Source of the DNA: Haloferax mucosum ATCC BAA-1512 | GTDB taxonomy: Archaea; Halobacteriota; Halobacteria; Halobacteriales; Haloferacaceae | Reading direction: 5' to 3' | NCBI RefSeq assembly: GCF_000337815.1 | Contig: NZ_AOLN01000009.1 | Coordinates: 1 to 49,692, forward strand | DNA: 49,692 bases | Shown here: in pieces, positions 1 to 49,692 of the stretch | How positions within the stretch are numbered: the stretch's first letter is position 1 | How the letters are laid out: every line of letters begins with the position of its first letter | The notes under the pieces: model-generated | The model's input: the letters and a program-made list of their open reading frames with translations, nothing else | What the model was told of the DNA's origin: nothing | The model's database searches: none | Made by a program: the position numbers and the translations under genes

Positions 1-2
1 GG

Positions 3-10666: not shown

Positions 10667-10680
10667 AGTCACGTGTATTC

Positions 10681-11043
10681 ATGGCCGTCGAAGCTCCTCC
10701 AGCCGAGTTTGCGGCATATTCGCCGACACGCCACGTCATCCAGCACGCCAAAGGCCTCTCGAAAGGGCCGAACCGGCACGTCTCGGGAGACCTCATCCGC
10801 GAGTGTATCGAAGACGGCGTCCCAAAGAAGGTCAACCGTCACAAGTGGCGCTTCCAGAAGCGCATCGGCGGCGTCGACTTCGTCACAGTCGTCGCGACCG
10901 ACGCTCACGAAATCCTGACTGCACATCCTATCGCCGTCGACCGTCCCAAAGCCGAGCGCCGCGGCTACTGGTCGGCCACCGAACTCGACGACCTCGAAGC
11001 CGTAATCGAATACCATGAGCAAAAACAACCCCGACCGTTCTGA
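10681..11043 (+). CDS. DUF4258-like / RelE-fold small protein
   Basis: The 120-residue product resembles DUF4258-type proteins of the RelE/BrnT-like fold: HVIQHAKGLSKGPNRHVSGD, then LIRECIEDGVPKKVNRHKWR, then strands GGVDFVTVVATDAHEILTAH. Known relatives include toxins, but haloviruses carry many solitary copies. No clear antitoxin accompanies it; the next small gene overlaps it by 29 bp and could be a partner. It begins 15 bp after the previous stop. Confidence 0.55.
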   Translation: MAVEAPPAEFAAYSPTRHVIQHAKGLSKGPNRHVSGDLIRECIEDGVPKKVNRHKWRFQKRIGGVDFVTVVATDAHEILTAHPIAVDRPKAERRGYWSATELDDLEAVIEYHEQKQPRPF

Positions 11044-12059: not shown

Positions 12060-12668
12060 ATGTCTCCTCTCGCCTTTCACATCGCCGCACATCTCACAAG
12101 CGACAGTGCCGGCGTTGATCACAAAGCGAAGTTCGGACGCTACGTCAACGAACAGCCGGACTTCGCCCGGTCGCGGTACATGCCCGACCTCGTCCGCGAC
12201 AACATCACCGATGTTGCCCGCCACGAGTTCACCCTCTCACCGCCGGCGACGCCGGCTGACCAGGACCCCATCCCACGAGGCAACTACCGGGAGTTCTGGC
12301 TCGACGCCCTCGAAAGCGAGCCGTGGGACATCTACTCCATCGCCGAAGCGATGGCCGACCGCTTCGACATCAACACCGGCTGGGCGTTCAAGACCGCCCG
12401 CCAACACCTCAACCAACTCGTCCTCCAGGCACGGATGCGTGGCTACCGTGAACAGCCATTGGCCGGCCGTCGATTTCGATGGAGCGGCCCCGAAGCCGAC
12501 CACCCGGCGTGCGCGTGGATACAAGAGCAGGTCCCTTCAGAGGGGCTTCCGTACCACAAACTCGTTGACCTGATGCAAGAGGCGAAGCAACGGTTCGTCG
12601 AGAACCCACCAGCGTCAACTCATGTCGTCCACGACTGGTGCCGCCACGAAATCCGGGAGGTGCGATAG
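12060..12668 (+). CDS. Unknown protein between TerS and TerL
   Basis: The 202-residue product has conserved-looking Trp/Cys features (FRWSGPEADHPACAWIQEQV, about 138-157) and a C-terminal VVHDWCRHEIREV. The pattern loosely resembles the end of Mu gpF/SPP1 gp7-type head morphogenesis proteins, but I would not rest on it. It starts 11 bp after TerS and stops 1 bp before TerL, so it belongs to the packaging/head operon. Confidence 0.6.
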   Translation: MSPLAFHIAAHLTSDSAGVDHKAKFGRYVNEQPDFARSRYMPDLVRDNITDVARHEFTLSPPATPADQDPIPRGNYREFWLDALESEPWDIYSIAEAMADRFDINTGWAFKTARQHLNQLVLQARMRGYREQPLAGRRFRWSGPEADHPACAWIQEQVPSEGLPYHKLVDLMQEAKQRFVENPPASTHVVHDWCRHEIREVR

Positions 12669-12669
12669 G

Positions 12670-14334: not shown

Positions 14335-14342
14335 TACAACAC

Positions 14343-19559: not shown

Positions 19560-20426
19560 ATGCCAGTCACGACTCTCAAGAGCGCACAGAAATTCGAAGA
19601 CAAAGGTCACGCCGAAGTCGAATTTGTCGGCTTCCGCTACACCGGCGACGCGTCGATGAAAGCCGACCTTGACATCCGCGAACGTGCGGGATACAACGGC
19701 CCCGCAAAATTCCAACAGGGGCAGGTCTACCTTGCGTTACTACCGACGTATCTCGACCCTAATCATGTCGAGAACGCCAACATGGGAGTTCACGCCCTCG
19801 AAGCCCGCAACGACTTCGAGGTCATCTACGACGCCAAGCGCCTTGCTGAGGCACTTCTCGAACGCAACTATCTCCCACCAGAGGTCTTCTACGAGGGGTT
19901 CGACCGTTACAAGCGAAAGAAGCTCTTCGAGAAGCTCAGCCTTGACGACCACGGCCGCGTCTTCGGCAAGGACGATGAAGAGCCCTACCGCGACGGACTC
20001 CGGGCTATCGCCGGCATCGAGCGCGACGAGGCCGCAGAGGTCTCCCAACAGCGGACCGACGAGTATATCCAGCGGTTCTCTCGGTCGCAGGCCGCCGACA
20101 TCGTCCGCACGTTGCAAGCCCCTGCGACCGACCCTCCCTTCGAACCCAGCGACCACACCATCGACGAACTCGAAGCCAAACTTGAGACCGATGACGACGA
20201 GAAGTGGGACGACGAGACACTCGAAGTGCTGTACGTCGCCGAACAGAACGGCGATGATCGCGCCGGCGCTCGCAACGCTATCGAAGACGTACTGGGAGAC
20301 AGCGTTGAGACCGACAGCGTCATCGACCTTGAAACGGCTGGCCTCACCGACATGGCCGAGTTCCTCACGCGTTTCGAACCTGATGTCGTCGAGACGACTG
20401 TCGCCGAAGTCACCGGCGAGGAGTAA
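19560..20426 (+). CDS. Unknown head-associated protein
   Basis: The 288-residue product begins with a small beta-rich domain (TTLKSAQKFEDKGHAEVEFV) and continues with long charged helices; the last 80 residues look like a helical bundle (DHTIDELEAKLETDDDEKWD). It follows the capsid gene, where head decoration or connector genes lie. The ATG at 19560 overlaps the stop of a 15-codon Thr-rich frame (19513-19560, MTDTTTATTTTTERH) that might be a leader peptide. No family was recognised. Confidence 0.65.
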   Translation: MPVTTLKSAQKFEDKGHAEVEFVGFRYTGDASMKADLDIRERAGYNGPAKFQQGQVYLALLPTYLDPNHVENANMGVHALEARNDFEVIYDAKRLAEALLERNYLPPEVFYEGFDRYKRKKLFEKLSLDDHGRVFGKDDEEPYRDGLRAIAGIERDEAAEVSQQRTDEYIQRFSRSQAADIVRTLQAPATDPPFEPSDHTIDELEAKLETDDDEKWDDETLEVLYVAEQNGDDRAGARNAIEDVLGDSVETDSVIDLETAGLTDMAEFLTRFEPDVVETTVAEVTGEE

Positions 20427-20432
20427 GCGTTC

Positions 20433-21137
20433 ATGTCGTCTGCGACCGACGATGTCCGCTATGCGAGCGCCGACGCTGTCCTTACGGCCGCGAGTGACAC
20501 AGACCCGTCTACAGCACCGCAATGGGAGCGCGACCGGGCAAAACGCCGAGCGGTTGCGGTCACCAAAACGTGGGTCACCGAGACTGGCAAAGCGTTCCAT
20601 CCTGTTCGAGTCGGCGACCCCAGCGAACCGCGCACGTGGCCCGTCTTCGACGTCCAAGACGCCGTCTCGTGGTCGCCGGCGACGGTTCTCCTCGACGAAC
20701 AACCGCTCCCCATAGACCCCGCCGAAGGCGACGCTCTCGAAGTGCGCGACGGCCGAAACTCGTGGGACGACGTCACCAGCGAGGAGGGCGACACGTGGAC
20801 GCTGGACTACCGCCGCAAGCGCTTGCGAATCTATCGCCGACGCTTCGTCCGCAAGCCCTGGGACAACCCAAACACGCGCTTCTGCCGGCTAACATATCGC
20901 TATGGTCCACTCGACGACACCGTGTCGATGACGGACGACGGCCTCGTCGAAAGCGTCCCCGAAGACGTCGTTGAGGCGGTCGCGGCGAAGGCGGCGATGC
21001 GTCTCACCCTCGACGATGATGCCACAACGGGCGTCCCCGACGACGGCCAACTGACGAGTCGCGGGTCGAAACGAGCCGCGCTCAAAGAGGAGTGGGAAGA
21101 AACGGTTGCCAACTACACCGGCTTTTCAACACTCTGA
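20433..21137 (+). CDS. Head-tail connector (adaptor) protein candidate
   Basis: The 234-residue protein lies in the adaptor slot and has the mixed helical/strand pattern of gp6/gp15-like connectors. An N-terminal helix (WERDRAKRRAVAVTKTWVTE) precedes a strand-rich centre (LDYRRKRLRIYRRRFV; FCRLTYRYG), followed by a helix with EDVVEAVAAKAAMRLTLDD. FCRLTYRYG-type strands before an alpha helix are common in these proteins. Function is from position and pattern. Confidence 0.6.
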   Translation: MSSATDDVRYASADAVLTAASDTDPSTAPQWERDRAKRRAVAVTKTWVTETGKAFHPVRVGDPSEPRTWPVFDVQDAVSWSPATVLLDEQPLPIDPAEGDALEVRDGRNSWDDVTSEEGDTWTLDYRRKRLRIYRRRFVRKPWDNPNTRFCRLTYRYGPLDDTVSMTDDGLVESVPEDVVEAVAAKAAMRLTLDDDATTGVPDDGQLTSRGSKRAALKEEWEETVANYTGFSTL

Positions 21138-21139
21138 CG

Positions 21140-21565
21140 ATGGGATTAGAACTCGAAAACGAATTCGAGGCGCTCGCAGAGCAAGCGCTCCTCTCAAACG
21201 TCGCCTCGACGCTTCGCGACGACTATGGGCCGCTTCTAAAAGACGCCGTCGAGAAGAACTTCAAGGCGTACGCTGCCGCGAACGACTACGATATCTCCTT
21301 CATCTGGGACGCCGCTGAGGACCCCGTCGTCAAGCGCTCCCAGCAGTCGGTCCAGCTCCGCATCGAGTGGCCAGGGCTGACCGCACTCTTCGAACTGGGT
21401 GTCGAACCCCACACGATCACCGGTGATCTGCACTTCTACTGGGAGGCGAAGGACATGTGGATTCAAACCGACTCCGTCAACTGGGGAAGTGAGACCGGCG
21501 GTATTCCCGAATCCCGGGCAATCCGAAACGGGCTCGAGGACCTCCGTCAGGAGATCCAGCGATGA
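21140..21565 (+). CDS. Neck / head-closure-like protein (HK97 gp10-like)
   Basis: The 141-residue product ends with the signature GSETGGIPESRAIRNGLEDL, like HK97 gp10-type tail-joining proteins, which carry a GG...P...fi..al motif near the C-terminus. It starts 2 bp after the connector stop and ends in an ATGA overlap with the next gene. It probably joins the head to the tail. Confidence 0.65.
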   Translation: MGLELENEFEALAEQALLSNVASTLRDDYGPLLKDAVEKNFKAYAAANDYDISFIWDAAEDPVVKRSQQSVQLRIEWPGLTALFELGVEPHTITGDLHFYWEAKDMWIQTDSVNWGSETGGIPESRAIRNGLEDLRQEIQR

Positions 21566-22032
21566 CGCTCGTCGAAGACGTCCTCGGCTGGATTCAGGCC
21601 GACTTCGCGGGCGGTCTTCCCGACGACCTGGAGCGTGTCAATCGGGACGACTCGAACAAGCTCGACGGCGGGATTCGGTCCCGGAAGCAGGACCTCGCAC
21701 GTTCGAACCTCGTCGGCGTCGGCTCGGTTCGGACGGACCCCACCGCCGTCGGGACCGAGTACGAACACAAGCAAGACGCGATACTCTCTTGCCGCATCGA
21801 AGCACTCCACGAAGGCCAGCGCGGCCATATCGCGGACGGCGACGCGTTCGAGGCCCTCGTCCGAAACGTCAGGCTCGCCATCCTCGCCCACCGCTCGTTC
21901 CCACCGACGTCGACGCCGGCGACCTACCACACGCTCTTCATCGAGAACGAGCGCAACGACTCGAAGATCTACCGCGATTTCTACCAGTACTCGTTTGACA
22001 TCCGCTTCCGCGGATACGACGACTTCAGCTAA
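21562..22032 (+). CDS. Tail terminator / completion protein candidate
   Basis: The 156-residue protein lies between the neck protein and the tail tube, where the tail terminator is encoded. It contains RNVRLAILAHRSFPPTSTPA and ends with a beta strand FYQYSFDIRFRGYDDFS, in line with small ring-forming terminator folds. The assignment is positional. Confidence 0.58.
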   Translation: MTLVEDVLGWIQADFAGGLPDDLERVNRDDSNKLDGGIRSRKQDLARSNLVGVGSVRTDPTAVGTEYEHKQDAILSCRIEALHEGQRGHIADGDAFEALVRNVRLAILAHRSFPPTSTPATYHTLFIENERNDSKIYRDFYQYSFDIRFRGYDDFS

Positions 22033-22066: not shown

Positions 22067-22984
22067 ATGAGCGCCGGCGCTGGCAGTTCGACCGTCGCGT
22101 TCACGCCCGAGCCGTCGTTTGGGGCCGACCCGGACATGGAGACGGCGACGTTCAACCTCCCGTTCAAGAATCCGACTATCGGTGAAGCATCGCTCTCAAA
22201 CGAACTACGACGTATCCGTGACCCGGACTCGGTCGTTTCAGTTGCCTCTTTGGCACAGAATTTCCAGGGTGCGCTCAACATCTCAGGAGAACTTTCGACG
22301 AACAACTGGCACCAGTTGGTCTTCAACAACGATGCAAACGACGGCTTCGAACCTGGCCGAATGCCCTCCTCACGATGGTATCTGGGTGTTGATTATCTAA
22401 CTGACCAAGCGATTGCAACCTCTGAGCGGGAGCTCGCAATGTGCATCGTCACAGACGCCCAAATCACCTACCAACAGGGAGGGGCCGTGACGCTTGACCT
22501 GACGATGATTTACGGTGACGAGAAGCTGTCGTCATCAATCACACCGTCGAACATTCAGAAACCGACAGACAGCGAAATCGTCGCATTCCACGGTTTCGAC
22601 GTCCAGATTGACGGCGTCTCCATCGATAAGCTCCAGAACGCGACGCTATCGCTGTCACCGAGTGCTCGATTCCACCGTGGGACAAGCCGCCACCCTGTCG
22701 ATGCTGTTATCGGGGATGTGACGCCGACGCTTTCGACCACAGGCATCTACTCCGGCCCCGGAGCAGTTGAGCGCGCGTTCGGAGACACAGGTGCAACTAC
22801 GCCAGCCGACCGTCTCACTGCAGTCAATGGAACCGTCTCGACGACCAATGGCTCGGGAACGACGACCTCGTACAACCTGACCGGCCTAAAGCCGCAGTCG
22901 TACAATTGGCAAGACCTCGTTGCACCCGACACCGACCTCACCGACCCCGTGACGTATAATGTAAGCAACGTTACGGTATCCTAA
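22067..22984 (+). CDS. Major tail tube protein
   Basis: The 305-residue, strand-rich protein has features of tube proteins: SSTVAFTPEPSFG at the N-terminus, NISGELSTNNWHQLVF, and AMCIVTDAQITYQQGGAVTLDL. A Thr/Ser-rich C-terminal domain of about 100 residues may be a surface Ig-like addition. It has a good Shine-Dalgarno (ggaggtaag) and stands just before the tail chaperones and tape measure. It polymerises to form the tail tube. Confidence 0.8.
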   Translation: MSAGAGSSTVAFTPEPSFGADPDMETATFNLPFKNPTIGEASLSNELRRIRDPDSVVSVASLAQNFQGALNISGELSTNNWHQLVFNNDANDGFEPGRMPSSRWYLGVDYLTDQAIATSERELAMCIVTDAQITYQQGGAVTLDLTMIYGDEKLSSSITPSNIQKPTDSEIVAFHGFDVQIDGVSIDKLQNATLSLSPSARFHRGTSRHPVDAVIGDVTPTLSTTGIYSGPGAVERAFGDTGATTPADRLTAVNGTVSTTNGSGTTTSYNLTGLKPQSYNWQDLVAPDTDLTDPVTYNVSNVTVS

Positions 22985-23666: not shown

Positions 23667-24810
23667 GAGCGAGTTCACGGCTGGTGCAGCCCTGCGGGTA
23701 GATGTTGACCGGGACAGCCTGCGGCACACCAGAGATGTCATCCAAGAGGCCGTTGGTGACCCCGAGGTTGCCGTCCGCCCGGGCGGGTCAACAACCGCCC
23801 GCGTTGATGGCGGTTCCAGTAGTGGGATCGGCGGCGACGTCACGCTCTCGGCCGTTATCGACGGTCTCGAACGCCACGGCGAGCGCCGGTCGAAAGAGGC
23901 GGCTCTCAGTCGGCAATTGCAGACGAAGCAAGTCGATTTACTCAACAAAGTCTGGGAGACAGCAGATGATATTGCCGGCGACGTTGGACAGGGTGATGAC
24001 CTCCTCGGTGGTGCTGTCAGTGACGTCCTCGTCGAAGCGGGCGGCGGGGCGGCCGGTGAGGCCGCTGGGTCGCTCCCGAGTATACTCTCCGACATGCTCG
24101 GTCCTGCACTCGGGAACGTTCTCGGCAACGTCGTGTCGGACCTCTTCCCGACTGGCGGTCAGAATGTCCAGATTCAGAAACCAAACTGGGTCCCGCTGTC
24201 GGTCACCCGTCCATCGTGGCAGGTCGGCGTAGACAAGCCCGACTGGAAAGTTAGTATCAAAGACCTCGGCGACCTCAACGTGGAAGCACCGACACTCGAC
24301 GTTGAGGAACCAACGCTTGGTGTTGATGATCCGTCGCCACTCAGCGTCGAGGAGGTCGGCCCACTCGAAGTCGAGGACGTCGACCCTATCGCAGTGTCTA
24401 CCGTCGGAGGTGGTCGAACAAACCCCCCGAAAAAGCCCGAATGGGAATACGACCTCGGCTTCATTCCAGAAACAGCGAACGAGTTTGGGGAAGAGGTCCC
24501 TGGCGTCGGCCACGCAGTTGGTAGTCTGTTTGGTCTCGGCGGATTCATCGGAGCGAATCTTCCTGGTTCGTCTAAAAGGAAACAGTACCGAAAAAAACTG
24601 GACCAGTACCGAACCGAACAGGCTGTATACGAGGCCACCGGCGGCGATGGTGGTGACGGATCATCCACTGTCAACATCACAGTCAACCAGGGCGACGTCG
24701 TCATCAAAGACGTCGATTTCCAACGTCTTCGGCGCGAAATGGAACGGAAGAGCCAGAATCAGATCGACAAAGCCATCAGCGACATCAAACGAAAGATCTC
24801 CGGGTTGTGA
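23659..24810 (+). CDS. Tape measure protein (short)
   Basis: The 383-residue protein sits after G-T and has a long N-terminal helical part, a Gly/Ala-rich hydrophobic segment (GGGAAGEAAGSLPSILSDML and GPALGNVLGNVVSDLF, about 128-165), and a run of short repeats. The repeats are first KPxW (KPNWVPLSV, RPSWQVGV, KPDWKVSI), then LxVE units (LNVEAPTLDVEEPTLGVDD). A second hydrophobic stretch (GVGHAVGSLFGLGGFIGANL) and a C-terminal helix follow. At about 0.15 nm per residue it predicts a tail near 57 nm. The W/LxVE region is odd for a tape measure and may be a tip domain. Confidence 0.72.
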   Translation: MSESEFTAGAALRVDVDRDSLRHTRDVIQEAVGDPEVAVRPGGSTTARVDGGSSSGIGGDVTLSAVIDGLERHGERRSKEAALSRQLQTKQVDLLNKVWETADDIAGDVGQGDDLLGGAVSDVLVEAGGGAAGEAAGSLPSILSDMLGPALGNVLGNVVSDLFPTGGQNVQIQKPNWVPLSVTRPSWQVGVDKPDWKVSIKDLGDLNVEAPTLDVEEPTLGVDDPSPLSVEEVGPLEVEDVDPIAVSTVGGGRTNPPKKPEWEYDLGFIPETANEFGEEVPGVGHAVGSLFGLGGFIGANLPGSSKRKQYRKKLDQYRTEQAVYEATGGDGGDGSSTVNITVNQGDVVIKDVDFQRLRREMERKSQNQIDKAISDIKRKISGL

Positions 24811-24827
24811 TTCTGGTTGCGGGCCGG

Positions 24828-25037
24828 TTACTTCTTGATATTCACGCTCACGTGCGTCCCTGCGATGTACCGCTTGAACAGATAGTACGCTACTGCAAGG
24901 GCGACGGCGAACAACACCACCCCGGCCAGACTCTGAAAGTACGCAAACAACACGCCCAGGACCACGACCGCTACTGAAAATCCAACAAGTACCCGGACCA
25001 CCGCCTTCCCAGTCCGGACCCAGTCCACTTCTACCAT
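24828..25037 (-). CDS. Small two-span membrane protein
   Basis: The 69-residue product has two adjacent hydrophobic segments, VVRVLVGFSVAVVVLGVLFA (about 10-29) and LAGVVLFAVALAVAYYLF (about 34-51), and a basic end. It reads against the tail genes and begins a cargo island. An upstream in-frame ATG at 25085 would add 16 basic residues. Small size and two spans fit a holin or superinfection-exclusion peptide, but nothing proves it. Confidence 0.55.
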   Translation of the reverse strand: MVEVDWVRTGKAVVRVLVGFSVAVVVLGVLFAYFQSLAGVVLFAVALAVAYYLFKRYIAGTHVSVNIKK

Positions 25038-25094
25038 TTTCTGATACTTTCGCCTGACGCTCAATAAGCGTAGCCCTGCAACCACACCAAAAAA

Positions 25095-25341
25095 ATGAAT
25101 CCAGACAGCTACTCGCCGCGACCAATTCCGCTGTCAGGATTGCGGAGTCACCCAACCAGAACACATCAAAAAGCACGAACGCAAACTCGACGTACACCAC
25201 ATCGTCCCTGCCCGCCAGTTCGACGACCCCGGGAAGCGCAACGCAATGGATAATCTTGTCACGTTGTGTCGTGTTTGCCACGCGAAGTGGGAGCGGATGT
25301 CCGGCCTTCGCCCCAACACCCGCGAACAGCCCGCTGACTGA
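25095..25341 (+). pseudogene. HNH endonuclease with frameshift near its start
   Basis: From about 25114 the third frame encodes a clear HNH protein: RDQFRCQDCGVTQPEHI, then KLDVHHIVPARQFDD, then MDNLVTLCRVCHAKW, ending at TGA 25339-25341. The two CxxC pairs and the HHIVP motif are intact. That frame has a stop at 25096-25098 and no start codon. The ATG at 25095 opens the neighbouring frame (MNPDSYSPR), which would join the HNH frame by a +1 shift in tactcgccgcgacc. A one-base insertion is the simplest cause; a programmed shift or a sequencing error is possible. Confidence 0.75.
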
Positions 25342-25380
25342 CTACTGCCACACCGATGACGCCAACTGGCCGAGGACATT

Positions 25381-25422
25381 CTCAACTTGTTGAGCATGCA
25401 GTGGCCCTTTGGGCCACTGCAT
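25381..25422 (+). terminator. Double hairpin after the HNH remnant
   Basis: ctcaac-tt-gttgag (25381-25394) is followed at once by a perfect 12-bp stem: atgcagtggccc (25396-25407), loop ttt, gggccactgcat (25411-25422). It would isolate the tape measure transcript from the toxin-antitoxin promoter downstream. Confidence 0.6.
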
Positions 25423-25504
25423 AGAGACGAACGGCACCTTCTACGGGCGGCTTCGTAGCCAATCCAGTCCAGTTCCGGGGCGATATCGTGGCGATTTAGG
25501 GTAA

Positions 25505-25515
25505 AACTTTAACTC
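25505..25515 (+). promoter_or_regulatory. TATA box of the toxin-antitoxin operon
   Basis: aactttaact lies about 27-30 bp before the antitoxin ATG at 25540, the distance expected if the transcript starts at or next to the start codon (leaderless). Confidence 0.5.
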
Positions 25516-25539
25516 TGTGCCTTCATCCCTAGGATAGAG

Positions 25540-25698
25540 ATGGCTACAGACGGCGACTCAGCCCACCCACCGAACGAAGACGACATGCTTCCTGACGAGC
25601 GTGCCGCAATCGCGGAACGCCTCAACGAGTTGGAAGACGATGAGTCGCACCTCACGCTCGACGAGGTCGCGTCGGACCTCGGTATCGAACTCGACTAA
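25540..25698 (+). CDS. RelB-type antitoxin
   Basis: The 52-residue acidic protein is too short for standard tracks but stands just ahead of a RelE-family toxin (2-base gap). Its sequence, DERAAIAERLNELEDDESHL then TLDEVASDLGIELD, is typical of short antitoxins: a helix that wraps the toxin plus a MetJ/Arc-like or extended part. It should neutralise the toxin and repress the operon. Its cognate pairing rests on gene order. Confidence 0.72.
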   Translation: MATDGDSAHPPNEDDMLPDERAAIAERLNELEDDESHLTLDEVASDLGIELD

Positions 25699-25700
25699 GC

Positions 25701-26033
25701 GTGCCGCGCGCGCCGTCAAAACTGCGATTTCTCCCAAGTGCGCGAGACGACCTCACTGATATTCAAACCCACAACCCCGACCACGCAGGGCGGATTTTCC
25801 GCAAAATCGCAGACTGGAAGGAGAAAATTGGTTGGGGCCGCGTCCCCCAACAGCGACTGACGTATCTCTCGGGGTCGGGGGGATACAACTTCTACCGAGA
25901 GCGAGTTGGGAATAGCGGCTACCGCGTCATCTACGAGATTAGCGGCGATTCGATGACGGTCGTTGCGGTCCTCCCGAAAGGCGACCACACCTACGATTTA
26001 GACGAGTTCCGCCGCCGGATGGACCGCGCCTAA
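25701..26033 (+). CDS. RelE/ParE-family toxin
   Basis: The 110-residue protein starts with GTG 2 bases after the antitoxin stop. It shows the RelE fold order: LRFLPSARDDLTDIQTHNPD helix, AGRIFRKIADW, then strands NFYRERVGNSGYRVIYEISG, SMTVVAVLPKGDHTYDL. The basic residues and the GYRVIYEI strand match ribosome-dependent mRNA interferases. With the antitoxin it forms an addiction module that would hold the element in the host. It interrupts the tail module between tape measure and distal tail genes, so it is a moron-type insertion. Confidence 0.82.
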   Translation: MPRAPSKLRFLPSARDDLTDIQTHNPDHAGRIFRKIADWKEKIGWGRVPQQRLTYLSGSGGYNFYRERVGNSGYRVIYEISGDSMTVVAVLPKGDHTYDLDEFRRRMDRA

Positions 26034-26112
26034 GCCCAAATTTTCTAAAACCTGAACTGATTTCGAATCACCCTTGAGCGCCGGGTAAGTGCGCCGATTT
26101 TTCATACTCACC

Positions 26113-26766
26113 ATGGTCACAAGACTCACGGGTGCCGTCCTTGAGGTCGAAGCGAACCTTGACGGCCAGCAATGCACTGGAATATTCCATCTGTCAAAAG
26201 ACTATAACGTCGTCGGCGATATCGTCCGCCAATATCTCATTGGGCCAACGGGCGAACTCGGTGCGCGACTCATTGACGTCCTCGAAGGCGATTCCGATGA
26301 GAGTGTCCTCGGTGACTCAACAAGAAATCGCCAGGGCTTCGTCATTGACGCTGGCGGGGGAACGCGCTCGTACGAGATCACCGCGTCACTGTCGGAGACG
26401 CCGTTCGGTGAACACGGCTACCTCCAGATGGGCGACACTGGTGACGAAACCAATCTGACTGCGACTGACGCGACTGGCGCCGATGCTCGTACGCAAGCGG
26501 ATGTGTTCTCGCGGTTCGTTTCTGAGGCAACAACAGACTCGATCAATAGCGCTACGCTCCACATTGGACACTATCACGACGGTACGTACACACTCGATGG
26601 CCAGCCAGGGCTCTTTGGCTCGCCTCGTGCAGTCCACATCCCTGAAGGACCACGAGTGACTGAGAGCGCTGAGGACGCGTCAGCGGTCGAGATTACGATA
26701 ACGTGCAACGTGGTCGGGTCGTTCGACCGCGCACTCGACATCGACGAACAGGTCCCATACCTATGA
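26113..26766 (+). CDS. Distal tail protein candidate
   Basis: The 217-residue, strand-rich protein resumes the tail module after the cargo island and overlaps the next gene by ATGA. It contains RLTGAVLEVEANLDGQQ, FVIDAGGGTRSYEITASLSE and a late strand DASAVEITITCNVVGSF. In siphoviruses the gene here codes for the distal tail (Dit-like) ring or first baseplate protein. I chose ATG 26113 over GTG 26089. Confidence 0.58.
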   Translation: MVTRLTGAVLEVEANLDGQQCTGIFHLSKDYNVVGDIVRQYLIGPTGELGARLIDVLEGDSDESVLGDSTRNRQGFVIDAGGGTRSYEITASLSETPFGEHGYLQMGDTGDETNLTATDATGADARTQADVFSRFVSEATTDSINSATLHIGHYHDGTYTLDGQPGLFGSPRAVHIPEGPRVTESAEDASAVEITITCNVVGSFDRALDIDEQVPYL

Positions 26767-27893: not shown

Positions 27894-30800
27894 ATGGTCG
27901 TCTTTGAGGACTTCGAGGACGTCACTGACTGGTCGTCGGTTACGAGAGACGCTTCACATGCCGTCGTCGGAAGTTATGCGGGAAAACTGGTCCACGAGGG
28001 CCAAGCAACCACAACCGACTCACGGACTATCCCAACACCACGGTCAAGTATTGCGTTCTACTGTGGTGCGAACCCCAATTCTGCTGGGTCGCAAAACCCA
28101 GGGATGGCAGAGATCCGATTTTCGAATAACGCTGTCGAACTAGAAGAGGGCCAACCTGTCATCCTGTCTGTCGGCGGGAACAAGCACACGCTTGCTCCAT
28201 CGTTTGTCGAAGGAGAGATGTACAAATTCCGGGCCGAACAGCGCGACAACGGCAATACAGACATTTACTGGGATGGATCACTCGTTGTCTCTGATATCAA
28301 CATCAGCGACGAAATTGGCAAACTCGAACTCTACGGGTACGCCGGTAACAACTCGGCGGCGACGACAACGGTATGGGTGGACCATGTTGAACTGCCACCG
28401 CTCCCACCAGGGAACCCGTCGGCAACAGCCCAAAGCACCGACCAGATAGACATCACGTATGAGTCTGTCACATCGGACGGCACGCCAACATATGACCTCT
28501 ATCGGGCGACGTCATCGGGAACAACACTGGCGGACTATACGACGGCTCTGAGCGGGACGACAACGACGTTTACTGATACGGGGCGGACGGAATCAACGCG
28601 GTACCACTATCGACTGACTGCGACCGACGATTCTGGACTCCGGTCACGCCCATCGGTCGAGGTTGACGAAGCGACTGTCGTCCCCGCGCCATCAGATCTC
28701 AACACCACGCCGGGAACACGAGAACTCGCCAACACCTGGACAAACAACGCGTCCAATGCAGACGGCTTTCGTGTCCGTGTCTCGACCGATGACGGCTCGA
28801 CGTGGACGCAAGTCGGTGAGGACCTCCCTCCCGATACGACAAACTACACCGCGACTGATCTTCTTGACGGCACTGACTACCTCATTGAAGTTGTCGCGTT
28901 CGGTGACGGCCGCGAATCGACTCCAGTAAGTGCGAGCGAAACGACGGAGTTCGCGGTTATCACAGGACTCAACGCAGACGCCTCGGTCGAGGACGCTCTC
29001 ACAGCACTTTGGGATGATACCGCAAACGTTGGAGAGTACCGCGTCCAACACCGCGTCACGAACTCGGGTGACCAATTTACTGACGACGGGACGGTCAGTC
29101 ACAAGACGACACAACTCACAATTACACACTTACTGGACGGCGAGGAATACGACATCAGACTTAGGCACGAGACAGACGATGGGACGGGGTCGTGGACTGA
29201 AATTTCACCAGTCACGCTCTTGCCGACGCCAGGAGCGTCGGTCGTGTCAGTTTCGAAGACGAGCGTCGATATCGATATCAGCGACAACGCCGACAACGAA
29301 GACAACTACACCATCGAACGGGCTGAAAAGCGTCTCGGGCAGTTCTCCAACTACCAGTACCTCTCGACGGAATCTGCCGGTCTGGCGATCTTCACTGACG
29401 AGACTCCGCGGCCGGGAACGGAGTACCGCTATCGTATTTCTGCAGTCACCGAGCATGTCACCGCTTCGACAACAGTGGAGACAGCAACCACGGCAACGGC
29501 ATTTCCCGACCGCGTTCCACAACGGGGCTGGTACGTCGAAATTGACCACCCAAGCGGGGCGACTCTCCGACCGCGAATCATCGAACAGGGGTCAGTTCAA
29601 CCGCGCCGTCTTCCGACGCTTAATGGACTTCCACGAGTCGAGATTCCCGTCCCACGAGATGGAAAATGGGACGCAAAGCAACTCGAACTCGCGCCATGCC
29701 GTGTCTGGAAGGATGGCATCCGCCAACCCATCGAAGAGATGACGAAGCCTCGGCAGACGCCCGAGGCGACTATCCTTACCGCACGAGGTGGGCGCGAACT
29801 CCTCGACCGCGTCGAAGAGAGCGTCACCGAGCAGGAGGCACACAACTTCATCGAGGGGCTCATCGACACGACTGGTCTTCAGGCCAACGTCGATGCACCT
29901 GATGCGGATATCACGACCGACACGCCGATGCTGTCGGCTGATACCGACCAGGATATAATATCTGCTCTCATGGGTGCACCGTTCGAGGATACAAGCCCGC
30001 TCGACATCTCATCTGGGACGCTCCGGACCCACGATGTTGCGTACTTTCGGTCAGCCCCGGACTTCGATAGGCTCCTTGGGTCGTCGAGTAACCATGCGGT
30101 CATCGAGTCGGGTATCTTCGGGAGTGGGGAAGCAATTCGAATCGACTCGATTGGTAACCAGTTCTACTATGACTTCGACGTTGAATACGAGCTCTCGAAC
30201 GCCGTCGTAGCCGTCCGAGTCTTCATCCCGGATGAGACGCACTCTGGCTTCGATATCGCACTCGATGGAACTGTTATCCAGACTGTTAACCCCGATACGC
30301 CCCCGACGCCGCTCGGGGAGGTCTGGTGGATCGATGACGAAGTCGTCGGGTCTGTCTCTCCTGGTTCGCACACACTTTCAGTCTATTTCAACGACGGGTC
30401 GTCCGGGGATGGGTCGCTGTCATTCGGGAGTGTTGCTCTTTTCGACGAGTCGTATACGACGGTTGCGAACGAGTCGTTCAACGACGGGCGGCCACTTTCG
30501 ACACCGCATCGAAAACCACCAAGTATCGACGTTGAGACGAACGACGTCACAACGGTCAAGCAGGTTGTCGGTGGCCGGCTTGAGGCGAGCGTCAACTCGA
30601 CAGCACGGAATCAAGCGCTCGCCGTCTCGAACGACCAAGGCCAGAATTGGGTCGAGGCATCGAATGGAACCGTTGTTGATGGGGCGTTCGACAGTGGCTC
30701 GCCACGGCTTCGTGGTCGCTTCACCCTCTCGTCGTTCGATTCAGGAAGTGGCGACCTCGCGTACGATGCGGGAACCGAAGTCGATCTCTTCGACTTGTTT

Positions 30801-31625
30801 GCGGACCTCGACGATACACCGCTCATCGTCAATCGTGTATTCGACGAAGGCAGGATGATCGACGTCTTCAACGAAGTCGCCGAACGCGGAGACTTCATCT
30901 GGTGTGTGACGACCGACCAGCACGGAACGCTCTCGGTTGAGTGGACACAACCCGGCCAACGCGAGGCATCAGGTGACCCAACTGTCGTCGATTACTCTGT
31001 CGAGACCGATGCAGGACAAATCACCGAGAAAGCCGTCGTCTATGGTACCAGTCAGCCTGTACGTGGTGAAGAAATCACTGCAGATGTTGGTGTCGCAGTC
31101 TCACTTCCAGACGACCACCTGCAATCGACCGGTGAGATTGTTCGGGCAACCGATGGCACGCGGTATGAGCGTGGGAGTGACTACGAGTTCGACCCGCTCG
31201 AAGGGACTGTAACCGTCCGTGCTGGTGGCGATATCGACAACGGTGACACGTTGGTCGTCGATTACCAAGCGAGGACACGCGGGACGTACGAACTCCCGAG
31301 CTTCGACGGCGACGAAACAAAGACTGTCGTTGAGACGATTCCGGGAGTTACCACGGGGCGGTCGGCTGATCAAGCGGCGCTCACGATTGTCCAGCAGACT
31401 TCAACGCCGCTGAAGACAGCAACCATCACTATTGACCGCTTCGATGCGGGTTGGGACCTCGTTGACCAGCTCTCGATTCCCGGCGTTCCCGGGCCGGCAA
31501 TGGAGCCGTGGTCGATCACTGACGAAAACGGCCAAATTAAGACACAACTCGGGAGCCGTGACCGCGTCGAAGAAGTCGTCTCGCGGCTTAAGACACGATT
31601 ATCGGCCGTTACACGCGAAATCTGA
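27894..31625 (+). CDS. Large tail hub / fibre protein with FnIII domains
   Basis: At 1243 residues this is the largest protein. Residues 1-165 resemble a LamG/concanavalin-type domain (VVFEDFEDVTDWSS). Four fibronectin-III repeats follow at about 165-260, 262-350, 352-445 and 445-537, with PxxP-NxxxxS starts and YxYRLTA/YxVQHR strands. The remainder starts RGWYVEIDHPSGATLRPRII and holds helical RELLDRVEESVTEQEAHNFI. A second carbohydrate-binding-like domain (about 710-860) and a C-terminal hub (ALTIVQQTSTPLKTATITID, WDLVDQLSIPGVPG) complete it. FnIII inserts in tail tip proteins usually mediate weak cell-surface binding. Confidence 0.78.
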   Translation: MVVFEDFEDVTDWSSVTRDASHAVVGSYAGKLVHEGQATTTDSRTIPTPRSSIAFYCGANPNSAGSQNPGMAEIRFSNNAVELEEGQPVILSVGGNKHTLAPSFVEGEMYKFRAEQRDNGNTDIYWDGSLVVSDINISDEIGKLELYGYAGNNSAATTTVWVDHVELPPLPPGNPSATAQSTDQIDITYESVTSDGTPTYDLYRATSSGTTLADYTTALSGTTTTFTDTGRTESTRYHYRLTATDDSGLRSRPSVEVDEATVVPAPSDLNTTPGTRELANTWTNNASNADGFRVRVSTDDGSTWTQVGEDLPPDTTNYTATDLLDGTDYLIEVVAFGDGRESTPVSASETTEFAVITGLNADASVEDALTALWDDTANVGEYRVQHRVTNSGDQFTDDGTVSHKTTQLTITHLLDGEEYDIRLRHETDDGTGSWTEISPVTLLPTPGASVVSVSKTSVDIDISDNADNEDNYTIERAEKRLGQFSNYQYLSTESAGLAIFTDETPRPGTEYRYRISAVTEHVTASTTVETATTATAFPDRVPQRGWYVEIDHPSGATLRPRIIEQGSVQPRRLPTLNGLPRVEIPVPRDGKWDAKQLELAPCRVWKDGIRQPIEEMTKPRQTPEATILTARGGRELLDRVEESVTEQEAHNFIEGLIDTTGLQANVDAPDADITTDTPMLSADTDQDIISALMGAPFEDTSPLDISSGTLRTHDVAYFRSAPDFDRLLGSSSNHAVIESGIFGSGEAIRIDSIGNQFYYDFDVEYELSNAVVAVRVFIPDETHSGFDIALDGTVIQTVNPDTPPTPLGEVWWIDDEVVGSVSPGSHTLSVYFNDGSSGDGSLSFGSVALFDESYTTVANESFNDGRPLSTPHRKPPSIDVETNDVTTVKQVVGGRLEASVNSTARNQALAVSNDQGQNWVEASNGTVVDGAFDSGSPRLRGRFTLSSFDSGSGDLAYDAGTEVDLFDLFADLDDTPLIVNRVFDEGRMIDVFNEVAERGDFIWCVTTDQHGTLSVEWTQPGQREASGDPTVVDYSVETDAGQITEKAVVYGTSQPVRGEEITADVGVAVSLPDDHLQSTGEIVRATDGTRYERGSDYEFDPLEGTVTVRAGGDIDNGDTLVVDYQARTRGTYELPSFDGDETKTVVETIPGVTTGRSADQAALTIVQQTSTPLKTATITIDRFDAGWDLVDQLSIPGVPGPAMEPWSITDENGQIKTQLGSRDRVEEVVSRLKTRLSAVTREI

Positions 31626-39350: not shown

Positions 39351-40574
39351 ATGAGTAGCGAAACCAGCGTCGACCAACGAACGAGGCGGAATTTTCTTTT
39401 AAGTACAGCGACTGGTGCCCTCGGCTGTCTCGCCGGTTGTAATTCGATTAATGGATCTTCCACAGGTTCCGCGACGGACTCTCAAGAGAGTATCCCACGC
39501 GCTATTGGACAGCGGGGCTGGCTCCAGCTCGGCGGCGGTTCCGAAAACCTCGCCTATCGGCCAGAGGGGAGTGCGCCGAGAGCTGAAGTTGAGACTGTAT
39601 GGACTGCTGACACGAGCCAGCGAGTTGCAACGAATCCTGCTGTTGCGAGAGAAACTGTGTTCGTCGCGAGTTACGATGGGAAACTCAGAGCGTTGGACGA
39701 AAAGGACGGCGACACGAAGTGGTCTTCTGCGCTATCGAGTCAGCGAACTTACGTCCGTTCTTCACCGGCCGTCGTCGGTGACCTTGTCTGTGCAGGTTCA
39801 CAGGATGGTGGAGTACGTGCGTACTCCACACAAGATGGGGAGCACAAGTGGACCGCACTGCCATCGCAACGCTTCGTGGGGGGAATAACTGTCAGCGAGA
39901 ACCGTCTCTACGTAGGGAGTATTGGAGAGGGCGCAGCCCTCTATGCGATAGACTCGGACGATGGTTCGGTCCAGTGGCAGGAACCGCTTGAAGGTGGGAC
40001 GAGTACTGCACCAGCAGTAACCGAGGAAACTGTGTTCGTCGGTGGAATCGGATCTCCACTCCGCGCGCTAAATACAGATACCGGGAAACAACGATGGCAG
40101 TACACATCGGCCGACCGAGCGAGTTTCGAAGGTGCACCCGCCGTAGATGAAGCCTTGGTCTACGTAACGAGTACCGATGGGAAATTGCACGCGATTAGTC
40201 GGGACACTGGTGACCGCTCGTGGATGGTCGATGTTCCCCAGCAGACAGGCTCGAGTGTAGCTGTCGCAGATGGAAGCGCGTTCGTTCTCGATTATGCGGG
40301 TACAATACGAGCGTTCGCCACAGAAGACGGAAGCCAGCAGTGGTCGGTTGAGACTAAGTCACCGTTCGCTAGAGATGACCCTGCGGTCGTCCGCGACACG
40401 GTCTATGTCGGTGCATTCGACGGTGTTGTTTACGGACTGAACGTAGAGGATGGGTCAGTTCGCTGGCAGTACGATACTGGTTCACCGGCAATCTGGGGCT
40501 CCCCAGTTCCAGTTAACGGGACGGTGTACGTCGGAGACGCTGATGGAACGGTGTACGCACTCGCCGAGGCTTAG
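39351..40574 (+). CDS. PQQ-like beta-propeller Tat lipoprotein
   Basis: The 407-residue protein has a Tat signal with lipobox (RRNFLLSTATGALGCLAGCN), so it is exported and lipid-anchored at the Cys near residue 30. The body is a WD/PQQ propeller with about seven blades, each ending in variants of LYAIDSDDGSVQWQ, VYGLNVEDGSVRWQYDTG, RALNTDTGKQRWQY. Such propellers are protein-binding scaffolds rather than enzymes in many haloarchaea. It shares a transcript with the upstream exported protein. Confidence 0.88.
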   Translation: MSSETSVDQRTRRNFLLSTATGALGCLAGCNSINGSSTGSATDSQESIPRAIGQRGWLQLGGGSENLAYRPEGSAPRAEVETVWTADTSQRVATNPAVARETVFVASYDGKLRALDEKDGDTKWSSALSSQRTYVRSSPAVVGDLVCAGSQDGGVRAYSTQDGEHKWTALPSQRFVGGITVSENRLYVGSIGEGAALYAIDSDDGSVQWQEPLEGGTSTAPAVTEETVFVGGIGSPLRALNTDTGKQRWQYTSADRASFEGAPAVDEALVYVTSTDGKLHAISRDTGDRSWMVDVPQQTGSSVAVADGSAFVLDYAGTIRAFATEDGSQQWSVETKSPFARDDPAVVRDTVYVGAFDGVVYGLNVEDGSVRWQYDTGSPAIWGSPVPVNGTVYVGDADGTVYALAEA

Positions 40575-41331: not shown

Positions 41332-41638
41332 CGAGTGGCTTCAGGTGCCGGTCTTTCAGTATCTCAAAGTCGCACTCGTAGTTGAGCCGCTGGTACTGCT
41401 TGTCGAGGCGCTTTTTCATCGGGTCCGGGAGATAGACAGTCACGCCATTCCATGCGCTCTTGACACTCTCTGCATCCCATGGGTTCGTGACGCGCACTTG
41501 CTTCTCTGCGTTCATTGCGCACTCTGAATCCTCTGCGTTCTCTGCCTTCGTGTCGTTCGTGTCATGCTGGTCGTTCTGGGAATTATCCTCGCCACCAAAC
41601 CGGCGGTTCAAGCGGCTATCAATCTCGTCGTCACTCAT
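41219..41638 (-). CDS. Plasmid partition partner of ParA
   Basis: The 139-residue protein overlaps the end of ParA by 8 bp. It has an acidic, disordered N-terminal half (SQNDQHDTNDTKAENAEDSE) and a C-terminal segment WNGVTVYLPDPMKKRLDKQY, QRLNYECDFEILKDRHLKPL, typical of the short proteins that follow parA on haloarchaeal plasmids. It likely serves as centromere-binding or adaptor protein in place of a classic ParB. It ends in a region also read by the 41065 gene. Confidence 0.75.
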   Translation of the reverse strand: MSDDEIDSRLNRRFGGEDNSQNDQHDTNDTKAENAEDSECAMNAEKQVRVTNPWDAESVKSAWNGVTVYLPDPMKKRLDKQYQRLNYECDFEILKDRHLKPLVIEYGLDAVAEMEPDDVQKAIADLERWYSTEEQTVNK

Positions 41639-42401
41639 TGTCTACCTCCGCGGCGATTGCGGCGTACACATCGGTCATGTCGGTTCCTTCAGCCTCGGCT
41701 CCGAAAATCGAGCAGTGAGAGTTCACCGTCCGCTCGATTGCGGCACGGTGTCGAACAACCCACACGGGGACGCGGCCCTCGAAGCGCTCTTCGTACCACT
41801 CCAGCATCCGCTTTTGTTCGTTGTCGAGTGGGTAGTGGACGTCGGAGACGACGATGCCCGAGATATCGACGCGCGTGTCGTAGTTCGACTCAAGCGTGTC
41901 GAGCTGTCGCAACAAGTGCTGGACGGCGAGCTTCGACGACTCGTCGGCGCGGACCGGGACGAGTAAGTTCTCGGTCGCAAGGACGACGTTGTCGTTGATC
42001 GGGCCGAGCGACGGCGGTGCGTCGAAGATGATTACGTCCCAATTATCGACGTCGTCGAACAGCATCTGGAGTCGCTGGCGAGGGCGCATCCCGCTAGCGA
42101 TGAGGTCCTGCTCGAGGGCGAACATATCGATGCTCCCCGGGAGGAGGTCGAACTCCCCGTGGGCGACGACAAGGTCGCTGACATCGTGGTCGTTGGGGTT
42201 CGCAAACGCATCGTAGAAGGTCGGCGGGTCGGACGTGTAGAGGTTCTCAAACCCGAGCCGGTGGGTGAGATAGCCCTGTGGGTCGGCATCGACGGCGAGG
42301 ACGTCGAGGCCACGGTCGGCGAGCGCACCCGCGATGTTGATCGTGTTCGTCGTCTTTGCGACGCCACCTTTCTGGTTGGTAATTCCGATCCTGACAGTCA
42401 T
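41631..42401 (-). CDS. parA: ParA-family partition ATPase
   Basis: The 256-residue protein carries the deviant Walker A of ParA/Soj, QKGGVAKTT (about 10-18), Walker A' VLAVDADPQG (about 37-46) and Walker B WDVIIFDAPPSLGP (about 119-132). It starts at MTVRIGITNQ rather than the upstream ATG at 42437. ParA segregates low-copy plasmids. Its presence with a small partner and an Orc1 plus origin shows that the element can be kept as an independent replicon. Confidence 0.92.
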   Translation of the reverse strand: MTVRIGITNQKGGVAKTTNTINIAGALADRGLDVLAVDADPQGYLTHRLGFENLYTSDPPTFYDAFANPNDHDVSDLVVAHGEFDLLPGSIDMFALEQDLIASGMRPRQRLQMLFDDVDNWDVIIFDAPPSLGPINDNVVLATENLLVPVRADESSKLAVQHLLRQLDTLESNYDTRVDISGIVVSDVHYPLDNEQKRMLEWYEERFEGRVPVWVVRHRAAIERTVNSHCSIFGAEAEGTDMTDVYAAIAAEVDNE

Positions 42402-42650
42402 GTCGTTCTTGTCGCGCACGACGTTCCATGCGTTCAAATAACTTCGTCAGACGAGCCGCAGTAGTTGTCACAAACACTCACTTGTCGGACACAGGTCCGT
42501 CATCAGTCGCGTCTTCGTCGAGAATCAGCACCGAGTGGAGTCAGTATCAGTTCCGGTTTTGGTGCGTGCTTTCAACTACCGTGACAACCCGAATACTCGA
42601 CACCAGAGCCACCTCACGACAAGCGGTTGTTCGACCGGGGACACCCGAAG

Positions 42651-42780
42651 AACGTCGGAAACGAGGGGTGTGACCGCCAAGAACGTTGGAAACGCGGTCG
42701 AAGGGAGTTTTCTGACGAGTCGCCGGGTTCGAAGGGTACAGCCACTCTCGCCCGGGATAAACGTCGGAAATGAGGGGGTG
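42651..42780 (+). other. Replication origin, left origin-recognition boxes
   Basis: Three repeats precede the orc1 gene: aacgtcggaaacgaggggtg (42651-42670), a weaker aacgttggaaacgcggtcg (42682-42700) and aacgtcggaaatgagggggtg without its last base (42760-42779). The form, a conserved core followed by a G string, is that of haloarchaeal ORBs bound by Orc1/Cdc6. A TATA-like gatttaac follows at 42781. Confidence 0.85.
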
Positions 42781-42813
42781 GATTTAACACGTGCCAGTGA
42801 GGAAGTCACAGCC

Positions 42814-44064
42814 ATGGACGACAAAACCGGGAACGCTGCCGCCGAGGTGTTCGGCAAGCCCGACCCGATTTTCGAGCAAAAATCGCTCGTTGACGTCGAT
42901 CACGTCCCCCAACCCGACCGGATCGTCGGGCGCGACGATGAGATTCGCGCCCTGTCGATGCAACTTCGGTCGGCAATCGACGGTGAGTCGCCGGAAAACG
43001 TGGTTATCTACGGCGAGACCGGGACGGGGAAAAGTCTCGTCGCAAAGCACGTCTCAAAGGTCGCCGAGACCATGGCCGACGGTGTCCGTATTGGCACCGC
43101 GTATATCGACTGTTCTGACGACGATACGGAGACGCAGGCGGTCTCGCATATCGCGCGAAAGCTCAACAAAGAGCACCAGACCGGGGTTTCAGTCCCCGAG
43201 ATGGGCTTGTCGAAGAGTGTCTACTACACGCGACTCTATGCGATTCTCGACGAACTCTATGACGTCGTACTCATCATCCTCGACGAGGCGGACATGCAAG
43301 CGGACGATGGGTTATTGATGTCGCTCTCGCGGTCGCGCGAGACGGGGAAGACTGACTGTCGGGTCGGCATCATCGCAATTTCGAACAAAGTGCGGTGGGC
43401 GGAGAACCTCAACGACCGCGTGAAGTCGTCGCTCCAGCCGCGCGAACTCAACTTTCACTCCTACGACGCGAACCAACTCCGCTCGATTCTCGAGCATCGG
43501 CGCGATGCGTTCCGCAACGGCGTCCTCGAGGATGGCGTCATCCAGTTGAGTGCCGCACTCGCCGCACAGGACCACGGCGACGCCCGGCAAGCCATTGATA
43601 TCCTGCGGAACGCCGGGATGCTCGCACAACAGCAGGGTTCCGAGACGGTTACCGAAGACCACGTCCGGGATGCACGGCGGGAAGCCGAGAAAGACCGGTT
43701 CCACGACCTCATTGGGGGGTTGACGGTCCAGAAGAAGACGACGCTCGCGGCGGTCACCTCACTCCACAAGCAGACCGGTCGTGAAGAGTTCCCGACCAGT
43801 GATATCTACACAGCGTACACGAACCTCTGCGACATGATCGGTGTCGAGCCACGAACCGAGCGTCGCGTACGCGACTTCGTCCGTAATCTCGCGTTTCTCG
43901 ACGTGCTCGATGCGCGGAAGGAAAACCAAGGACGCGCGGGCGGCATCACCATCTACGCGAGTCTTCAACCGGCCCACGATCTCGACATCGTCCACGAGAT
44001 TGCGTTGACCGACGACCGTTTCGCCGATGTTGACGGTGAGTCGGCGGCCCAGCTCTCGGAGTAG
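42814..44064 (+). CDS. orc1: Orc1/Cdc6 replication initiator
   Basis: The 416-residue protein has the full family layout: an N-terminal PDPIFEQKSLVDVDHVPQPD, VGRDDEI, Walker A GETGTGKS (about 67-74), Walker B LIILDEADM (about 152-160), sensor 1 around VGIIAISNKV, sensor 2 GDARQAIDILRNAG, and a C-terminal winged helix (EEFPTSDIYTAYTNLCDMIG). I chose ATG 42814 because family proteins start here and the upstream 93 codons hold the ORBs. It is flanked on both sides by ORBs, so it is the cognate initiator of this origin. Confidence 0.95.
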   Translation: MDDKTGNAAAEVFGKPDPIFEQKSLVDVDHVPQPDRIVGRDDEIRALSMQLRSAIDGESPENVVIYGETGTGKSLVAKHVSKVAETMADGVRIGTAYIDCSDDDTETQAVSHIARKLNKEHQTGVSVPEMGLSKSVYYTRLYAILDELYDVVLIILDEADMQADDGLLMSLSRSRETGKTDCRVGIIAISNKVRWAENLNDRVKSSLQPRELNFHSYDANQLRSILEHRRDAFRNGVLEDGVIQLSAALAAQDHGDARQAIDILRNAGMLAQQQGSETVTEDHVRDARREAEKDRFHDLIGGLTVQKKTTLAAVTSLHKQTGREEFPTSDIYTAYTNLCDMIGVEPRTERRVRDFVRNLAFLDVLDARKENQGRAGGITIYASLQPAHDLDIVHEIALTDDRFADVDGESAAQLSE

Positions 44065-48786: not shown

Positions 48787-48961
48787 AGACGTCCGCACGC
48801 GGTTCCGTCGTGGCACGCTTGGGGTTGGCGCACTCGCGGTCGTCGTCTGGGTCGCAGGTAAGACCGACGTCAGTGGCGTGCTCGTCGCCGTCGCGGCGCT
48901 TGCGCTCGTTGTTGATGCGAAGCTGACTGAGACTGATCTGCTCCCGTGGGGTGAGGAGTGA
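48779..48961 (+). CDS. Small membrane protein
   Basis: The 60-residue product has two close hydrophobic stretches (LGVGALAVVVWVAG, about 14-27, and VSGVLVAVAALALVVDA, about 31-47) and an acidic end. It overlaps both neighbours, the second by TGATG. Function unknown; possibly a lysis or exclusion peptide. Confidence 0.55.
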   Translation: MLEDVRTRFRRGTLGVGALAVVVWVAGKTDVSGVLVAVAALALVVDAKLTETDLLPWGEE

Positions 48962-49200
48962 TGGGTCGGTCGTTCTCCGCCTCAGATACGCACTTCGAGA
49001 TCGTCCGCTCGGAGACGTCGATCTCGAACGATGGATTGCGGAAGGGCGAGCCTGCCGCGCTCGTTTGTGGTGAGTGTGGGGCCTCACTTCCGTTGACCCG
49101 CCAGCGCTCGCCTGGGATCGACGAACTGTCCCATGAGCCGACGTGTGACCAGCGGTACGTTCGGTCGCGGTTCTGGCAAGTGCAGTTCAAGCAGGACTGA
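48961..49200 (+). CDS. Small zinc-binding protein
   Basis: The 79-residue product holds CGECGASLPLTRQRSPGIDE and a later C near EPTCDQRYVR, a likely incomplete or paired zinc knuckle. It closes the right-hand operon 36 bases before a strong terminator hairpin and the CRISPR array. Confidence 0.58.
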   Translation: MGRSFSASDTHFEIVRSETSISNDGLRKGEPAALVCGECGASLPLTRQRSPGIDELSHEPTCDQRYVRSRFWQVQFKQD

Positions 49201-49235
49201 GCCGACTCAGGTTCTCTGTAACCAGGAGATGTGTG

Positions 49236-49267
49236 GGGGGCATAACGCCTTAGCTTGTTATGCCCCC
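49236..49267. terminator. Strong hairpin between operon and CRISPR array
   Basis: gggggcataac (49236-49246) pairs perfectly with gttatgccccc (49257-49267) around a 10-base loop. It lies just after the rightward operon and just beyond the leader-distal end of the array, so it could terminate both. Confidence 0.7.
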
Positions 49268-49294
49268 TTGCTCGTCCTTGGGTTTTGACTACGT

Positions 49295-49692
49295 GCTTCA
49301 ACCCAACTAGGGTTCGTCTGTAACCCGCAATCAGTGACTCGCCGGCAACATCCTCTGCTTCAACCCAACTAGGGTTCGTCTGTAACATTCATCAGGTTCG
49401 ACAACCTCACCCTCGACGTACTCGCTTCAACCCAACTAGGGTTCGTCTGTAACGGACCGGCTGGAGGACTGGACGCACGGACTCGCAGAGACGCTTCAAC
49501 CCAACTAGGGTTCGTCTGTAACCGGTCGTTCGTCCCTTCTATCGCCGTCGTCATCTCGGGCTTCAACCCAACTAGGGTTCGTCTGTAACGTACACGTCTC
49601 AAGAGGCTCACACCGTCCAACGCCGAGCTTCAACCCAACTAGGGTTCGTCTGTAACACCGTGTGGATTCGACCGCCGCCAGAGCCGGTGGAC
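49295..49692 (-). CRISPR. CRISPR array, leader-distal part (6 repeats)
   Basis: Six copies of the same 30-bp repeat start at 49295, 49357, 49424, 49493, 49560 and 49627, identical to those at 3-562 and in the same orientation. Five full spacers are 32, 37, 39, 37 and 37 nt. The last spacer begins at 49657 and runs off the end with 36 nt; adding bases 1-2 of the window gives 38 nt and then a perfect repeat. The distal end at 49295 has no leader. A degenerate repeat-like aggttctctgtaac lies at 49209-49222. Confidence 0.97.

Follow-up and report, generated by a model that had tools for sequence, protein, structure and literature searches.

The stretch of DNA analysed here (the window, 49,692 bp) is the entire contig C9 of a Haloferax genome that comprises 3.37 Mb in 20 contigs. 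It begins and ends inside a CRISPR array, and the genes in between are those of a virus and of a plasmid, which raises the question of whether the array belongs to a viral element and which machinery would serve it. The reading that we regard as probable is that the window represents a head-tail virus that is circular and replicates as a plasmid, and that has a leader-bearing array of at least 14 spacers, carries no cas genes and is served by the type I-B system of the host.

Fifteen repeats of 30 bp were found on the contig, all identical to GCTTCAACCCAACTAGGGTTCGTCTGTAAC at 30 of 30 positions and all co-oriented, as the earlier note had claimed for the two ends. They are divided between the left end (nine repeats, 3-562) and the right end (six repeats, 49295-49656), every one of the 15 matches the Rfam family CRISPR-DR24, and in the sense of transcription the repeat reads GTTACAGACGAACCCTAGTTGGGTTGAAGC. 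The leader-side part of the array (1-562, minus strand) contains the nine perfect repeats, eight spacers and the last 2 nt of spacer 6, which is split by the contig ends, and the trailer-side part (49295-49692, minus strand) contains the six perfect repeats, five spacers and the other 36 nt of spacer 6. Thirteen spacers are not cut by the contig ends, and their lengths range from 32 to 42 nt. With at least three near-identical direct repeats and unique spacers of similar length, the locus is a CRISPR array by definition, and its at least 14 spacers place it beyond the mini-CRISPRs, which are defined by one to three. The count of 15 repeats and 14 spacers given before was reproduced, but it is to be read as a minimum, since the assembly generally broke at arrays. 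The trailer flank (49201-49294, no strand assigned) separates the array from the last conserved viral gene, and an inverted repeat (49235-49246 and 49257-49267) was recognised in it by direct reading. The same flank contains CAGGTTCTCTGTAACC (49209-49224), which resembles the end of a CRISPR repeat and is possibly a decayed copy.

The array runs leftwards, with the leader beginning after position 562 and the trailer side at 49295. The leader (563-734, minus strand) adjoins the first repeat and is the only one on the contig, in agreement with the earlier note. Its first approximately 100 nt are conserved with other Haloferax leaders, including those of five other arrays of this genome (70-76% identity in pairwise alignment). 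Repeat and leader together reach 87-88% identity with Haloferax loci, one of which is the right-hand array of contig C14 in the same genome. The nearest loci are from Haloferax and include plasmid arrays, and among phage records the leader had no match. Judging by these identities, the leader is of the Haloferax type and is not a recent copy of any host array seen in this genome.

Between the two array parts, the contig combines virion structural and packaging genes with plasmid replication and partition genes, the traits of a phage-plasmid. The terminase large subunit (12622-14334, plus strand; phrog_38, 7.1e-57) is followed by the portal protein (14331-16061, plus strand; phrog_18178, 6.1e-220), which is 80-89% identical to the portals of circular relatives, and by a tail tube-like protein (22067-22984, plus strand; PF18906, 8.1e-12). 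A tail-module protein of 1243 amino acids (27894-31625, plus strand) may be the tape measure, a function assigned by its size and position. The plasmid functions comprise a ParA-like partition ATPase (41631-42437, minus strand) and two Orc1/Cdc6 genes, an AAA+ gene next to the leader (735-1739, plus strand) and a second replication initiator (42535-44064, plus strand). On the trailer side, the array is preceded by a conserved viral gene (48958-49200, plus strand), the homologues of which lie directly before the early genes in circular relatives. Homologues of the eight Cas proteins of the host were not found within the window. The head-tail module, ParA and Orc1 without any cas gene, as described earlier, were thus all recovered. 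In its variable region, the element also has a gene for a PQQ-type beta-propeller protein (39351-40574), for which no homologue was found among the relatives compared.

The cas genes that the earlier note had suggested looking for in the same cell lie on contig C14, which contains a complete type I-B operon in the order cas6-8b-7-5-3-4-1-2. This operon is flanked on both sides by leader-bearing arrays with a repeat identical to that of the viral array. Two of the host arrays, C14 right and C19, contain near-identical spacers (33 of 35 positions; L046:10223-10257 and L047:15807-15841), which from their sequences are apparently directed at variants of one target.

Whether the two array parts are joined to each other on the element is better judged from the neighbourhood of the array than from its ends. 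Joining the contig ends yields a 38-nt spacer, which the earlier note had taken as a sign of circularity. The spacer is of normal length, but we rejected it as proof, since other pairings of contig ends are equally normal (C9R with C8R, 36 nt; C19R with C9L, 38 nt; C4R with C9L, 39 nt). In total, ten contig ends of the assembly stop inside arrays of this repeat, five as leader halves and five as trailer halves; the eight besides those of the window belong to C4 (both ends), C6, C7, C8, C14 (both ends) and C19, and one complete array of this type lies inside contig C11. Stronger evidence comes from the relatives. In Haloferax elongans, the contig NZ_AOLK01000020.1 (46,587 bp) has an 89-bp terminal overlap and is thus an assembled circle, and in it the homologues of the two genes that flank the array are neighbours (48958-49200 corresponds to 24309-24548 and 735-1739 to 24656-25654), separated by 107 bp in which no repeat-like sequence was found. 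Two further relatives, G014:C6 (54,591 bp) and IMGVR_UViG_2904983472_000001 (51,232 bp), have 127-bp terminal overlaps; both carry the homologue of 48958-49200 directly before the early genes and lack the Orc1 gene. Because the flanking genes are neighbours in circular relatives, the element is most likely circular as well, and both array halves would then occupy the same gap, which has a conserved late gene on one side and an Orc1/Cdc6 gene on the other. It is this synteny, and not a direct reading of the junction 49692/1, that supports the circularity of the element, which the earlier note had proposed on the basis of the end-join.

The literature agrees with this assignment. Maier, Dyall-Smith and Marchfelder (2015) described AOLK01000020 as HeloV2 of H. 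elongans and AOLN01000009 as HmucV2 of H. mucosum; in their judgement, each is a circular plasmid that has no integrase (PMC4390866). The window contig is very probably HmucV2, since genus and contig number agree, it is related to HeloV2 and it encodes MPDLVRDNITDV at 12180, a peptide that differs by one change from the target peptide of a H. volcanii spacer. The main text of that publication makes no mention of an array. It does report that a chromosomal spacer of H. volcanii targets the HmucV2/HeloV2 family (PMC4390866), and host CRISPR is thus something that the virus has to contend with.

An artefact of assembly or integration would account for the locus if the element lay between two tandem host arrays, with the leader of one to its left and the trailer of the next to its right, or if the contig ends were chimeric, so that the array halves were chromosomal. 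The eight other contig ends that break off in arrays with this repeat and the normal spacers from other end pairings speak for such an artefact. However, in relatives that are circular and lack an integrase the flanks lie next to each other, no direct repeat of at least 7 bp that could serve as an attachment core is common to both flanks, and a related provirus from Haloarcula amylolytica, described below, contains an unbroken internal array. Insertion of the element into a single resident array was rejected on the orientation of leader and trailer, since it would leave both on the chromosome and not on the element. We therefore give this explanation very little weight. Both array halves are contiguous with viral genes, which supports that the array belongs to the element.

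The spacers provide information on where the array has been. When all 14 spacers were compared by BLAST with phages, with plasmids, with 170 genomes of the family and with the rest of their own genome, a single full-length match resulted. This is spacer 4 (49523-49559, minus strand), which is identical at 37 of 37 positions to the host gene secF (G000:C7:43039-43075); in the 169 other genomes of the family, the best matches listed have at least two mismatches. The own-genome search was made with the 14 viral spacers; the genome has 66 others. For ten spacers, BLAST against 392 genomes of the order yielded no viral or plasmid protospacers. An IMG/VR target scan covered the PAM-proximal ends of spacers 8, 12 and 13: spacers 8 and 12 had no match, and the matches of spacer 13 were rejected, as they comprised only 18-20 nt and lay on AT-rich viral contigs. 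Short matches to Pseudomonas phages and Streptomyces plasmids were likewise discarded as chance, and those of spacer 14 (22-24 nt in G+C-rich stretches) were treated in the same way.

The secF site is flanked by ACG on the PAM side in crRNA orientation, which is not among the six known Haloferax PAMs (PMC4390866), and by TTC on the opposite side. Since TTC stands on the flank opposite the expected one, the simplest reading of the sequence is that spacer 4 is a self-derived spacer that was inserted backwards and would hence be harmless. The perfect match points to its acquisition in the present host or its close kin, which could have taken place before the array moved onto the virus. With a shift of 11 nt, spacer 6 has 25-26 nt in common with one of the spacers in the chromosomal C11 array, from which it follows that both arrays met the same invader. 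Beyond the end-join of the contig, the next base of spacer 6 agrees with the C11 spacer and the following base differs, so that the join is neither supported nor excluded by this comparison.

A second array of this kind was found by scanning IMG/VR for the repeat. IMGVR_UViG_2554235482_000003 (47,009 bp) is a related provirus, which is 100% identical over 16.7 kb to NZ_AOLW01000047.1 of Haloarcula amylolytica and has a portal with 68% identity to that of the window. It contains an unbroken array without cas genes at 20412-21896 (L151:412-1896), with 23 repeats, 22 spacers and a leader of its own. A long gene of the tail module (24212-26275) lies on one side of it and an Orc1/Cdc6 gene (9857-10861) on the other. 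Its different site and a leader that is only 62% identical to that of the window suggest that the two arrays were gained independently in one virus family. No array was found in seven other relatives, each covered over at least about 40 kb, and the array is thus not a core viral trait.

The array would most likely be transcribed from its own leader, after which host Cas6 would process the transcript and the crRNAs would load into the host type I-B effector. This processing and the use of the viral crRNAs by the effector are expected by analogy with established type I-B biology. Host Cas1-Cas2-Cas4 would also extend the array, and the perfect repeats and the conserved leader fit ongoing or recent adaptation. 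The likely benefit would be superinfection exclusion, in which competing viruses and plasmids are kept out of the shared cell, which would help both the element and its host. We infer transcription, processing, interference, packaging and benefit of the viral array from its sequence and genomic setting. The earlier note went further and saw in the array an offensive device or one for competition between viruses, a role that the findings do not show: the only identifiable target is host secF, no viral or plasmid protospacer was found, and a weapon would be conjecture for this reason. More tentatively, and with somewhat less than even confidence, we propose that one family of archaeal head-tail phage-plasmids repeatedly captures full-length leader-bearing arrays, which host Cas1-Cas2-Cas4 then extend, so that the virus would be a packaged, transmissible and self-updating immune memory that hosts have in common.

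The main rival to a served array is passive cargo: recombination would have brought the array in from a plasmid or chromosome of Haloferax, and the element would draw no benefit from it. The Haloferax type of leader and repeat, closest to Haloferax loci that include plasmid arrays, is in line with this, as are the secF spacer, which identifies no competitor, and the missing array in most relatives. Yet the repeats are all perfect, the leader is conserved and signs of decay are absent, spacer 6 and a host spacer target the same site, and two family members apparently gained arrays independently at different sites, so that we consider passive carriage rather unlikely. Much less probable is a regulatory or host-directed use, in which the viral crRNAs would affect host genes, for example secF, or would serve as decoys that occupy host Cas complexes, as a counter-defence. 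The perfect match of spacer 4 would suit such a use, as would the targeting of the virus family by the H. volcanii spacer (PMC4390866), with the near-identical target peptide at 12180. Against it, the secF site has an unsuitable trinucleotide on its PAM side, the spacer seems, from the TTC at its other end, to have been inserted backwards and to be tolerated as inert, and only one of the 14 spacers is of this kind.

Compared with known systems, virus-borne arrays without cas genes are a known but rare kind, of which the array of the window, the one that we read as served by the host, is an unusually long example. The Sulfolobales portogloboviruses SPV1 and SPV2 are likewise archaeal viruses with leader-bearing arrays and without cas, for which host machinery is presumed, but their arrays have one or two spacers with known viral targets, as opposed to at least 14 spacers and no known viral target here, and they are portogloboviruses, not head-tail phage-plasmids (PMC6858448). 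The mini-arrays of the Bathyarchaeia Chiyouvirus share a repeat identical to that of the host and perfect self-DNA spacer matches with the window; they differ in that each array has three spacers, that the virus encodes a Cas2-like protein, which the window lacks, and that their self spacers match the virus itself instead of the host chromosome (PMC10848311). Among bacteria, prophages of Clostridioides difficile carry cas-less arrays, which are expressed, on a temperate virus, with the host type I-B cas operon elsewhere in the cell, but they are integrated and have known phage targets (PMC6079278). The cyanophage N-1 array also has a leader and no cas genes and is transcribed during infection, and it differs in its four spacers and its cyanobacterial host (PMC4916379). 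Proviruses of Haloferax lucentense, Natrinema and Halobacterium have haloarchaeal virus-borne CRISPR systems that partly rely on the host; these are adaptation-deficient type I-B systems with interference cas genes, whereas the window carries none (PMC12596717). HmucV2 and HeloV2 belong to the same virus group as the window (PMC4390866), and orphan arrays on plasmids were already known (PMC9071438).

The earlier statement that cas-less arrays of archaeal viruses are known only as mini-arrays agrees with the one to three spacers in the searched literature, but it passes over bacterial cas-less prophage arrays and haloarchaeal proviruses with cas genes. According to this literature, in which archaeal viruses have either tiny cas-less arrays or arrays with cas genes of their own, three points are new: cas-less arrays with a leader reach at least 14 and 22 spacers on archaeal viruses, members of a single virus family apparently gained arrays twice, and one spacer derives from the host. 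Evidence such as that of the secF spacer is rare; it points to spacer uptake in this host lineage, either by the array or by its direct source. If a plasmid-like virus of a culturable genus carries a long and intact array together with its leader, the viral storage and spread of adaptive immunity, updated by the host, would become directly testable.

Three further observations concern sequences outside this family comparison. A viral contig of 70 kb (IMGVR_UViG_3300025333_000002) contains a lone haloarchaeal-type CRISPR repeat without an array (2727-2756), possibly a solitary virus-borne repeat. Eight haloarchaeal repeats (4469-4956) form the end of a viral-classed contig of 5 kb (IMGVR_UViG_3300010232_000269), which is too short to be confirmed as viral. 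The plasmid NZ_CP070337.2 of Halobacterium sp. BOL4-2 contains three places similar to the viral repeat and leader, and at 49,847 bp it is about as large as these phage-plasmids.
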